A stretch of 64,000 nucleotides of DNA from Halobellus sp. LT62 (GTDB lineage Archaea > Halobacteriota > Halobacteria > Halobacteriales > Haloferacaceae): assembly GCF_037031285.1 (NCBI RefSeq), contig NZ_JAYEZO010000002.1, positions 248,001 through 312,000 on the forward strand, written 5' to 3'. The translations under genes were made by a program, and so were the position numbers. Every line of letters starts with the position of its first letter. Within the stretch, counting starts at the first letter, position 1. The notes beneath the pieces were generated by a model. The model worked only from the letters and a program-made list of their open reading frames with translations, did not search any database and was not told the DNA's origin. Below are positions 22,325 to 25,516 of this stretch, in pieces.

Positions 22325-23698
22325 ATGGACGAGATCTCTTTCGGGACGGACGGTTGGCGGGCGACGCTCGACACCTTCACGGACGATCGGGTGCGGATCG
22401 TCGGGCAGGGCGTCGCCGACTACCTCATCGAGGCGGGGTACGACGACCCCGTCTTCGTCGGCTACGACGCCCGCGAGACCTCGAAGGGGTTCGCCGACTC
22501 GCTGGCTGAGGTCCTCGCGGGCAACGGCTTCGACGTCCTCCTGCCCGAGCGCGACTGCCCGACGCCGCTCGTCGCCTACGCGATCGTCGACCGTGGGCTC
22601 TCGGGCGCGCTGATGATCACGGCGTCGCACAACCCGCCCGAGTACAACGGCGTGAAGTTCATCCCCTCCGACGGTGCGCCAGCCCTCCCCGAGGTGACCG
22701 ACGCTGTCGCCGCGTACCTCGCGAAACCGGATCTCCTCCCCGAAGCCGAGCGCGGAACGATCGAGACGGTCGACGTCGTGACGCCGCACTCCGCACGCGC
22801 CCGCGACCTCGTCGACGCCGACCTCTCGGGACTGACGGTCGTCCACGACGCGATGCACGGCTCCGGTCGCGGCGTCACCGACGAACTCCTCCGCTCCGCC
22901 GGCGCGGAGGTCGTCAGCGTCCGCGACGGGCGCGACCCCGACTTCGGCGGCACGCCGCCGGAGCCCAGCGCCGAGAACCTCGAACCGCTCGTCGAGGCGG
23001 TGGAGAAACACGACGCCGACCTCGGGGTCGCGAACGACGGCGACGCCGACCGCGTGGCGTTCGTGACGCCCGATCGGGGGCACTTAGACGAGAACCTCTT
23101 CTACGCCGCCCTCTACGACTACCTCCTCGAATCGGACTCGGGGCCCGCGATCCGGACGGTCTCGACGACGTTCCTGATCGACCGCATCGCGGAGGCACAC
23201 GGCGAGGAGGTCTTCGAGACCGCGGTCGGGTTCAAGTGGGTCGCGCAGGCGATGGCCGAACACGACGCGCTCATCGGCGGCGAGGAGTCCGGCGGCTTCT
23301 CGATCCGCGGGCACGTCCGCGAGAAGGACGGCGTCCTGATGGCGCTGCTCGGGGCCGCCGCGGCGGCCGAAGAGTCGATGGACGTCCGCGTCGACCGTCT
23401 GCTCGACACCCACGGCGACATCGTCTCCGATAAGATCAGCCTCGACTGCCCTGATTCGGAGAAGGCGCGCGTCATTTCCGACCTCGACGAGGCGCTCCCC
23501 GAGCGAGTCGCCGACCGCGATATCGCCGAGGTGGTGACGCTCGACGGGTTCAAACTCCTCCTCGAAGACGGGTCGTGGCTCCTCGTTCGCCCGTCCGGGA
23601 CCGAGCCCAAAATGCGGATCTACACGGAAGCGTCGAGCCAAGACCGCGCCGAGGCGTTGCTGGCGGCGGGGCGGGAGCTGGTCGAACCGCTCATCTGA
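22325..23698 (+). CDS. Phosphoglucomutase/phosphomannomutase family protein
   Basis: A 457-residue alpha-D-phosphohexomutase moving phosphate between C1 and C6 of a hexose. Four expected elements appear in order: FGTDGWRATL at the N-terminus, the phosphoserine loop MITASHNPPEYNGVK, the metal loop GVANDGDADRVAF, the sugar loop GGEESGGFS, and the phosphate-binding RPSGTEPKMRIY near the end. It would feed nucleotide-sugar synthesis for glycans. The exact sugar is not predictable. Its last 8 bases overlap the convergent GNAT gene. Confidence 0.9.
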   Translation: MDEISFGTDGWRATLDTFTDDRVRIVGQGVADYLIEAGYDDPVFVGYDARETSKGFADSLAEVLAGNGFDVLLPERDCPTPLVAYAIVDRGLSGALMITASHNPPEYNGVKFIPSDGAPALPEVTDAVAAYLAKPDLLPEAERGTIETVDVVTPHSARARDLVDADLSGLTVVHDAMHGSGRGVTDELLRSAGAEVVSVRDGRDPDFGGTPPEPSAENLEPLVEAVEKHDADLGVANDGDADRVAFVTPDRGHLDENLFYAALYDYLLESDSGPAIRTVSTTFLIDRIAEAHGEEVFETAVGFKWVAQAMAEHDALIGGEESGGFSIRGHVREKDGVLMALLGAAAAAEESMDVRVDRLLDTHGDIVSDKISLDCPDSEKARVISDLDEALPERVADRDIAEVVTLDGFKLLLEDGSWLLVRPSGTEPKMRIYTEASSQDRAEALLAAGRELVEPLI

Positions 23699-24188
23699 GA
23701 GTCCCGAACAGGCGGTCGTCGGTGTCGGCTTCCGCGTCGTCCGCGTTCTCGGCGGCGTCGCCCTCGCCGTTCTCTCGGTCGCCGTCACGACGGATTTCGA
23801 ACCCCAGCGCCGCGTAGAACGGCCGCACTCGCTCGTGGAACCTCGCGACGAGCGATCCCGCCGCGCGCGTCGCCGCCGCCTCGACGAGTGCGCGGCCGAT
23901 TCCGCGCCCGCGTCGAGAGCGGCGCACAGCGATCGATTCGATCTCGGTCGAGCCGCTGTCGGTCCCGGCGGTGGGGTCGCTGTCGTCGCTTTCGGTGCTG
24001 TCACCGTCGACGACGCCCAACACGCAGACTCCGATGACTTTCCCTTCCCCGTCGACAGCGACGAGCGCGTCGCCCTCGCTGACGCGCCGGCGCACCCGCT
24101 CGCGGTCGAACTCCAGCATTGCGGCGTCGAGCAGATACACGACGTCGTCGGCGTCGTCGGGCGTCGATTCGCGGATGTCGGGGGTCAT
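23691..24188 (-). CDS. GNAT family N-acetyltransferase
   Basis: A 165-residue acetyltransferase. The acetyl-CoA pyrophosphate loop is VRRSRRGRGIGRALVEAA, followed by HERVRPFYAALGFEIR, the usual beta-bulge and Tyr region. An acidic insert (residues ~67-85) and acidic C-terminal tail are haloadaptive. The start is the ATG at 24186-24188 (MTPDIRES). Substrate is unknown. Confidence 0.83.
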   Translation of the reverse strand: MTPDIRESTPDDADDVVYLLDAAMLEFDRERVRRRVSEGDALVAVDGEGKVIGVCVLGVVDGDSTESDDSDPTAGTDSGSTEIESIAVRRSRRGRGIGRALVEAAATRAAGSLVARFHERVRPFYAALGFEIRRDGDRENGEGDAAENADDAEADTDDRLFGTLR

Positions 24189-24210
24189 CGTCGAACTGTC
24201 CACACCTCGA

Positions 24211-24420
24211 CTACCGAGACGACCCGCCCTTGATGAGTCGGAGCACGCGCACGCGCTCGACTTCGACGGGCTGGTCCTCCGGCACGGGGCTGCCGTCGAT
24301 CATCACCGAGACCTCGTGCGGCGAGTAGCCGACGGCGCGGACGACGTCGGCGTACGTGTCGCTGTCGTCGACCTCGACTGTCTCCTCCCCTTCGCCGACG
24401 ACGTCAACGGTCACGCGCAT
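24211..24420 (-). CDS. samp2: SAMP2-like ubiquitin-fold small modifier with C-terminal tail
   Basis: A 69-residue beta-grasp protein. Residues 1-66 match haloarchaeal SAMP2 in length and pattern (TYADVVRAVGYSPHEV, VPEDQPVEVERV, VLRLIKGG). SAMP2 is activated by the E1-like UbaA, attached to protein lysines, and also serves in tRNA thiolation. In the H. volcanii protein as I recall it, the diglycine is the true C-terminus. Here GG is residues 65-66 and SSR follows before a TAG stop, so a protease would have to trim three residues before activation. rfcS lies divergently next door, as in other haloarchaea. Confidence 0.88.
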   Translation of the reverse strand: MRVTVDVVGEGEETVEVDDSDTYADVVRAVGYSPHEVSVMIDGSPVPEDQPVEVERVRVLRLIKGGSSR

Positions 24421-24504: not shown

Positions 24505-24513
24505 GTTTATGAG
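24505..24513 (+). promoter_or_regulatory. TATA box of rfcS
   Basis: GTTTATGAG lies about 27 bases ahead of the ATG at 24536. It supports that ATG rather than the upstream in-frame start, which would fall inside the promoter. Confidence 0.5.
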
Positions 24514-24535
24514 CCACCGGGACGCTTGCTCGGGT

Positions 24536-25516
24536 ATGAGCGAGGCCGACGATTCTGCGGGGACCCCGGCGGGACGCGAGATCTGGATCGAGAAGTACCG
24601 ACCGGAGACGTTCGACGACATCTACGGCCAAGAGGAGATCGTCGAGCGCCTGCGCTCGTACGTCGATCGCGACGACCTACCGCACCTGCTCTTTGCGGGC
24701 CCAGCCGGTACGGGCAAAACTACCTCGGCTACCGCCATCGCCCGCGCGATCTACGGCGACGACTGGCGGAACAACTTCCTCGAACTGAACGCCTCCGACG
24801 AGCGCGGTATCGACGTCGTGCGCGACCGAATCAAGAACTTCGCGCGCTCGTCGTTCGGCGGCTACGACCACCGGATCATCTTCCTCGACGAGGCCGACTC
24901 ACTCACGGACGACGCCCAGTCAGCGCTCCGCCGGACGATGGAGCAGTTCTCCGACAACACGCGTTTCATCCTCTCGTGTAACTACTCCTCGAAGATCATC
25001 GACCCGATCCAGTCGCGGTGTGCGGTCTTTCGCTTCTCGCCGCTCTCCGATGACGCGATCCGCCGGCAGGTCGAAGACATCGCCGAGGCGGAGGACATCG
25101 ACGTCACCGAGGACGGCCTCGACGCCCTCGTCTACGCCGCCGGCGGCGATATGCGACGGGCGATCAACTCCCTGCAGGCGGCGGCGACGACCGGCGAGGT
25201 CGTCGACGAGGAAGCCGTCTATCTGATCACGTCGACGGCGCGGCCAGAGGAGATCGAGGAGATGGTCCGGGCGGCGATCGACGGCGACTTCGCCTCGGCT
25301 CGCGCGCAACTCGAACACTTACTCGTCGACACCGGGATGGCCGGCGGCGACATCATCGACCAGCTGCACCGCTCGGCGTGGGACTTCGACCTCGACGAGC
25401 GCACGACGATCCGGCTGATGGAACGGATCGGCGAGGCGGATTATCGAATTACGGCGGGGGCGAACGAGCGGGTCCAGTTGGAGGCGCTGTTGGCCGCCCT
25501 CGCGGCCGAGGAGTAG
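24536..25516 (+). CDS. rfcS: Replication factor C small subunit
   Basis: A 326-residue AAA+ clamp-loader subunit that opens PCNA rings. Walker A is [13 protein letters not shown], Walker B is [12 protein letters not shown], the SRC arginine-finger motif is [10 protein letters not shown], and sensor 2 is [12 protein letters not shown]. It lacks the inteins that interrupt this gene in several haloarchaea. PCNA, its partner, is at the left edge of the window. Confidence 0.95.

Follow-up and report, generated by a model that had tools for sequence, protein, structure and literature searches.

SAMP2 with residues beyond the diglycine in Halobellus, and the association of such tails with the desampylase JAMM1 among haloarchaea

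The samp2 locus and its genome

We examine the samp2 gene in a window (the whole stretch of DNA analysed, 64,000 nucleotides) of the Halobellus sp. LT62 genome, together with the genes that could process and activate its product. Coordinates are collected in Table 1. Minus-strand translation from 24420 to 24211 gives MRVTVDVVGEGEETVEVDDSDTYADVVRAVGYSPHEVSVMIDGSPVPEDQPVEVERVRVLRLIKGGSSR and then a stop: the product begins MRVTV, ends VLRLIKGGSSR before TAG, and carries its diglycine at residues 65-66. The original prediction had read the end of this ORF as LIKGG, SSR and TAG, which the translation bears out, with the strand now fixed as minus. The same interval read on the plus strand translates, in that frame, into an unrelated sequence.

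Table 1. Features of the samp2 locus (window coordinates) and of related genes elsewhere in the genome
Feature	Position	Strand	Evidence or remark
samp2, SAMP2 (putative precursor), 69 aa and TAG stop	24211..24420	minus	translation, Pfam, NCBIfam, phmmer
Predicted mature SAMP2 core, residues 1-66, ending in the diglycine	24223..24420	minus	GG = 24228-24223
C-terminal extension SSR, read as propeptide	24214..24222	minus	TCG TCT CGG
TAG stop codon of samp2	24211..24213	minus	
GNAT acetyltransferase, downstream neighbour of samp2	23691..24203	minus	same strand as samp2; conserved in haloarchaea
Putative replication factor C small subunit, divergent, upstream of samp2	24509..25516	plus	P-loop AAA sequence, read by eye
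UbaA-type E1, one copy	G000 C1:212100-212804		equivalog NF047750, 1e-160
JAMM1 desampylase, one copy	G000 C1:375670-375987		equivalog NF041370, 7e-46
SAMP3-like modifier	C2:353654-353911	minus	same genome

That the gene encodes a SAMP2 is borne out by family models and by alignment with known structures. The product matches Pfam PF21965 (1.8e-29, 102.4 bits, cut-off 27) and the NCBIfam equivalog NF041919 (8.6e-32, 109.5 bits, cut-off 70), and phmmer pairs it with the H. volcanii SAMP2 structures PDB 2l32 and 4hrs. In the NF041919 match, residues 1-66 correspond to model positions 1-66 of 66, and the model stops precisely at GG. The original prediction had the H. volcanii protein ending at GG, which is consistent with 4hrs, whose sequence stops there in the alignment. 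The encoded Halobellus chain runs past this point; an end at GG is typical of SAMP2 but is not demanded by the family models.

The GNAT gene next to samp2 is a familiar neighbour, since a GNAT association is listed for the SAMP2 family in Halobacteria by Makarova and Koonin (PMC2948915). For the putative replication factor C gene on the other side, a later ATG at 24536 may be the true start codon. A megablast of the samp2 region against plasmids gave no match.

Elsewhere in the genome, the single JAMM1 scores 155.4 bits against NF041370 (cut-off 130) and has an intact catalytic JAMM zinc motif, with the upstream Glu in SEEICG and HTH-x7-S-x2-D in HTHPTGPVHPSDTD. A second JAB protein is JAMM2-like (HSHPNGVLRPSDAD) and, by inference only, the orthologue of HvJAMM2. 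The genome also encodes three SAMP1/MoaD-like Ubls, two of which end at GG. The third, which by its FPPVAGG end and by comparison with H. volcanii SAMP3 we take to be SAMP3-like, continues after that diglycine into a 27-residue tail, SADGCESTAADGSTSIPTARASKESTS. A ThiS-family protein (C2:919991-920113, minus strand) ends in NPFMFCL and has no diglycine.

Tails and fused domains in haloarchaeal SAMPs

Twelve genomes of the genus gave a match, and in them the diglycine is followed by SSR (the gene in the window), SSRR, SSPR (four genomes), SSGATLGPPS, SSGVDPDSPP, AE, TR or no residue. Two further genomes of the genus, at 98-99% completeness, yielded no SAMP2 that passed the family cut-off; loss, divergence or missing sequence are all possible. 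Outside Halobellus, SAMP2 tails of 1-17 residues occur in a scattered fashion, and haloarchaeal SAMP2 extensions as a whole span everything from one residue to entire fused domains (redoxin, acetyltransferase). The tail is therefore not peculiar to this organism, contrary to what the original prediction implied: among haloarchaea, SAMP2 and SAMP3 genes commonly carry tails or fused domains.

The fusions take several forms. Halorussus and Halopenitus have a redoxin domain (AhpC-TSA, PF00578, 5e-18 and 1.5e-16) encoded in the SAMP2 frame beyond GG. Such in-frame fusions to a peroxiredoxin-like protein were read at six Halorussus loci (one of them L039:2501-3349), at two in Halopenitus and at four further loci, with a low-complexity linker between GG and redoxin. 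In Haloarchaeobius (two loci) the redoxin is a separate gene whose start lies inside the samp2 stop codon, and in some Haloferax it is a separate gene adjoining samp2. Two other genera have SAMP2 and the GNAT acetyltransferase that follows it as one continuous frame. In four genomes that have JAMM1 (genus codes g3, g9 and g2), a SAMP3-like Ubl is fused after FPPVAGG to a neighbouring small protein ending KAMRAGG, that is, a single chain with two diglycine-ended modules. The KAMRAGG protein resembles, by C-terminal motif and neighbourhood only, the GG-ended arCOG06308 (PMC2948915). A structure model of the Halorussus fusion (8 sequences, mean pLDDT 65) has two ordered parts and a disordered link from residue 63, beside GG, which weakly favours the precursor reading.

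Tails and JAMM1 across genomes

If residues after GG need to be removed, genomes that lack the enzyme should have none. Of 391 haloarchaeal genomes drawn evenly, each at least 90% complete, 287 have JAMM1 and 104 lack it. Desampylation by JAMM1 is therefore not universal in haloarchaea, about a quarter of these genomes lacking it. SAMP2 C-termini were read in 80 of the 104 JAMM1-lacking genomes (23 genera) and in 80 JAMM1-having ones (66 genera), the latter chosen for genus diversity before the tails in the draw were seen. All 160 have SAMP2, unlike the two same-genus genomes mentioned above.

The outcome is one-sided. Without JAMM1, SAMP2 stops precisely at GG in every genome (80/80, no tails), whereas with JAMM1 a tail is present in 23 of 80 genomes (19 of 66 genera): short tails of 1-11 residues, four redoxin fusions and two GNAT acetyltransferase fusions. 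Fisher's exact test gives 3.8e-8 by genome and, for 19/66 against 0/23 genera, 0.0023. Tails are unevenly distributed among families, one family (f1) holding 14 of the 23 tailed genomes and another (f2) showing no SAMP2 tails in its 9 JAMM1-having genera. An independent-pairs test on a tree of the 66-residue SAMP2 core, which is poorly resolved, left only 3 supported pairs, and family-stratified exact tests were used instead: for all SAMP2 tails to lie in genomes with JAMM1 they give a probability of 0.008 by genus and 0.0004 by genome. The SAMP1 and SAMP3 genes of 80 genomes behave in the same way, with tails in 24/51 with JAMM1 and 0/19 without (family-stratified exact probability 0.0016 by genome). 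In a first sample, which overlaps the later draw, JAMM1 was found in all 31 searchable genomes with a tailed SAMP2, and 5 of the 18 genomes without a tail lacked it. What these counts suggest, a dependence of tails on JAMM1, is a correlation, with family controlled and phylogenetic dependence only partly removed.

A JAB-family protein persists in every JAMM1-lacking genome (at 27 of the 30 loci examined it is a JAMM2-like orthologue, with 54-69% identity to the Halobellus one), and yet these genomes have no tails; that any JAB protein would explain the tails is therefore rejected. The tails are tied to JAMM1 rather than to JAB proteins in general, and the JAMM2-like protein alone permits none. 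This fits H. volcanii, where purified HvJAMM2 alone is reported not to be functional while HvJAMM1 acts alone (PMC4895103).

GG is invariant in all 160 haloarchaeal SAMP2, including all 23 with a tail, and the LRLIKGG end is equally conserved in tailed and tail-free proteins. Directly after GG, 56 of 72 distinct SAMP1/2/3 tails have Ser, Ala, Gly, Thr or Cys (expected fraction 0.40-0.45), and Glu, Lys, Gln, Leu, Tyr and Pro are found there in none of the 72. The bias matches the site preference of C. subterraneum Rpn11, whose processing of pro-ubiquitin is blocked by Glu after GG and sped by Gly (PMC6043591), but it is only suggestive, since mutation of a stop codon likewise favours Ser, Arg and Gly.

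A candidate propeptide and its known counterparts

We think it very probable, on comparative grounds, that SSR is a propeptide which JAMM1 cuts off before UbaA activates SAMP2; both the removal of SSR in Halobellus and JAMM1 as its agent are what we infer from genomes. In outline, samp2 would encode a pro-SAMP2, JAMM1 would hydrolyse the peptide bond after Gly66 and release SSR, and the diglycine carboxylate so exposed would be adenylated by the E1-like UbaA, the activated SAMP2 then serving protein conjugation and tRNA sulfur transfer. On the scale of genomes, one that has JAMM1, an enzyme that cuts behind the GG of SAMPs in any case, could afford to lose the stop that follows GG, so that short tails and neighbour-gene fusions could accumulate there; a genome without JAMM1 would have to keep its stop immediately after GG. 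The original prediction that SSR implies a processing step is supported, by the restriction of tails to JAMM1 genomes and by the known activity of HvJAMM1, as far as the step itself goes, but not in making it special to this organism. A JAMM protease of the same genome, which it had put forward as a candidate, is favoured by the comparison and by the published action of HvJAMM1 on linear SAMP1 fusions; an unknown enzyme need not be invoked, given that the known desampylase would serve.

Other accounts of the tail deserve consideration. Short, unconserved tails that vary within a single genus might be neutral clutter, trimmed by the proteasome, a carboxypeptidase or general proteases, and their association with JAMM1 a by-product of shared ancestry, as tails and JAMM1 both cluster in families (f1 above being an example). 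However, the association survives family stratification in two separate gene sets, and the fused domains, 114-220 residues long, are likewise found in JAMM1 genomes only, where trimming residue by residue is implausible; we regard this account as improbable. We give even less credence to the idea that SAMP2 stays unprocessed and works differently, with UbaA accepting the tailed protein or the modifier acting without covalent chemistry. The one hint in its favour, an indirect one, is that SS(P/R)R is conserved in several Halobellus species, which could mean that the tail has a function. Against it, one would hardly expect GG and LRLIKGG to be conserved regardless of a tail in proteins whose glycine carboxylate stays masked, and there are no tails wherever JAMM1 is absent. 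A modifier put to a different use had been the other option of the original prediction, and the invariance of GG in every tailed protein argues against it.

A misread or misassembled stop codon could in principle have produced the tail, TAG and TCG being one base change apart. Yet in other Halobellus assemblies (L005/L017, L006/L016, L007/L018, L008 and L009) the same place reads TCG TCG, CCG or CGA, CGG or CGA, TGA, a serine codon followed by a longer tail. Because these sister assemblies carry extra residues at the same codons, a base error, which had been raised as a caveat, is excluded, and we assign it a negligible chance.

The propeptide reading can be widened, with odds that we put only slightly better than even: JAMM1 may be a general maturase of haloarchaeal Ubls, the tails its genomic footprint, and the fused genes natural SAMP polyproteins that are split into co-produced parts. 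If so, the SAMP2-redoxin, SAMP2-acetyltransferase and SAMP3-GG-protein polyproteins would parallel the fusions of ubiquitin to ribosomal proteins, and the fused domains hint at partner proteins of SAMPs. Redoxin is of interest among them because SAMP conjugation responds to oxidants (PMC5587910).

Processing of precursors is an event of known kind for archaeal Ubls. H. volcanii JAMM1 cuts a linear SAMP1-MoaE fusion precisely after GG, in vitro and in vivo; the cleavage in vivo depends on jamm1, and molybdopterin synthase function returns once SAMP1 and MoaE have been freed (PMC4443979). Crenarchaeota and bacteria have Ubl-MoaE fusions of natural origin (PMC4443979). In the open-access literature, outside which key papers lie, no account turned up of SAMP2 or SAMP3 being made naturally as precursors in haloarchaea, nor of redoxin, GNAT or GG-protein fusions of SAMPs. 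That such precursors are widespread in haloarchaea, that the fusions occur naturally and that both are confined to genomes with JAMM1 thus appears unreported.

The usual description has SAMPs made ready for use, with GG as their last residues, and JAMM1 serving in deconjugation. Should the tails be propeptides, JAMM1 would in many haloarchaea also act at an earlier step, before conjugation, and a tailed SAMP2 would work only with jamm1 present, in a group where H. volcanii is genetically tractable. The H. volcanii SAMP2 (HVO_0202) is the closest point of comparison: it belongs to the same family (PF21965, NF041919), has the same LRLIKGG end and lies in a homologous neighbourhood with a GNAT gene, but it stops at GG where the Halobellus protein adds SSR. 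Because SSR follows GG, the Halobellus protein must be a precursor if it is activated at all. The protease that acts on SAMP1-MoaE has a family member in the Halobellus genome, and the predicted reaction is the same peptide-bond cut right after GG; the difference is that SAMP1-MoaE is an engineered fusion, whereas the haloarchaeal candidates are natural SAMP2 and SAMP3 proteins with short tails or fused domains.

Caldiarchaeum subterraneum likewise has archaeal Ubls with residues after GG and JAMM-type trimming, CsJAMM cutting SAMP precursors and Rpn11 cutting pro-ubiquitin (PMC6043591, PMC5654768). We found no genome-wide dependence of tails on the protease described in these two papers. Caldiarchaeum belongs to another lineage, and its ubiquitin, which works with E2 and E3 enzymes, is a Ubl of another kind.

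In eukaryotes, ubiquitin, SUMO and NEDD8 are made as precursors, and ubiquitin also as fusions to ribosomal proteins, in which a protease exposes the masked GG before E1 activation. The tailed haloarchaeal SAMPs resemble them in that GG is masked by a tail or by a fused protein, and the genomic marks of a pro-ubiquitin-type system are found together here: residues after an invariant GG, a GG-specific protease in the same genome, and no tails without it. If the propeptide reading is right, precursor logic of the eukaryotic type would be widespread in archaea beyond ubiquitin systems of the Caldiarchaeum type, with one difference in the enzyme, eukaryotic Ubl processing being mostly the work of cysteine proteases and the haloarchaeal candidate a zinc JAMM protease.
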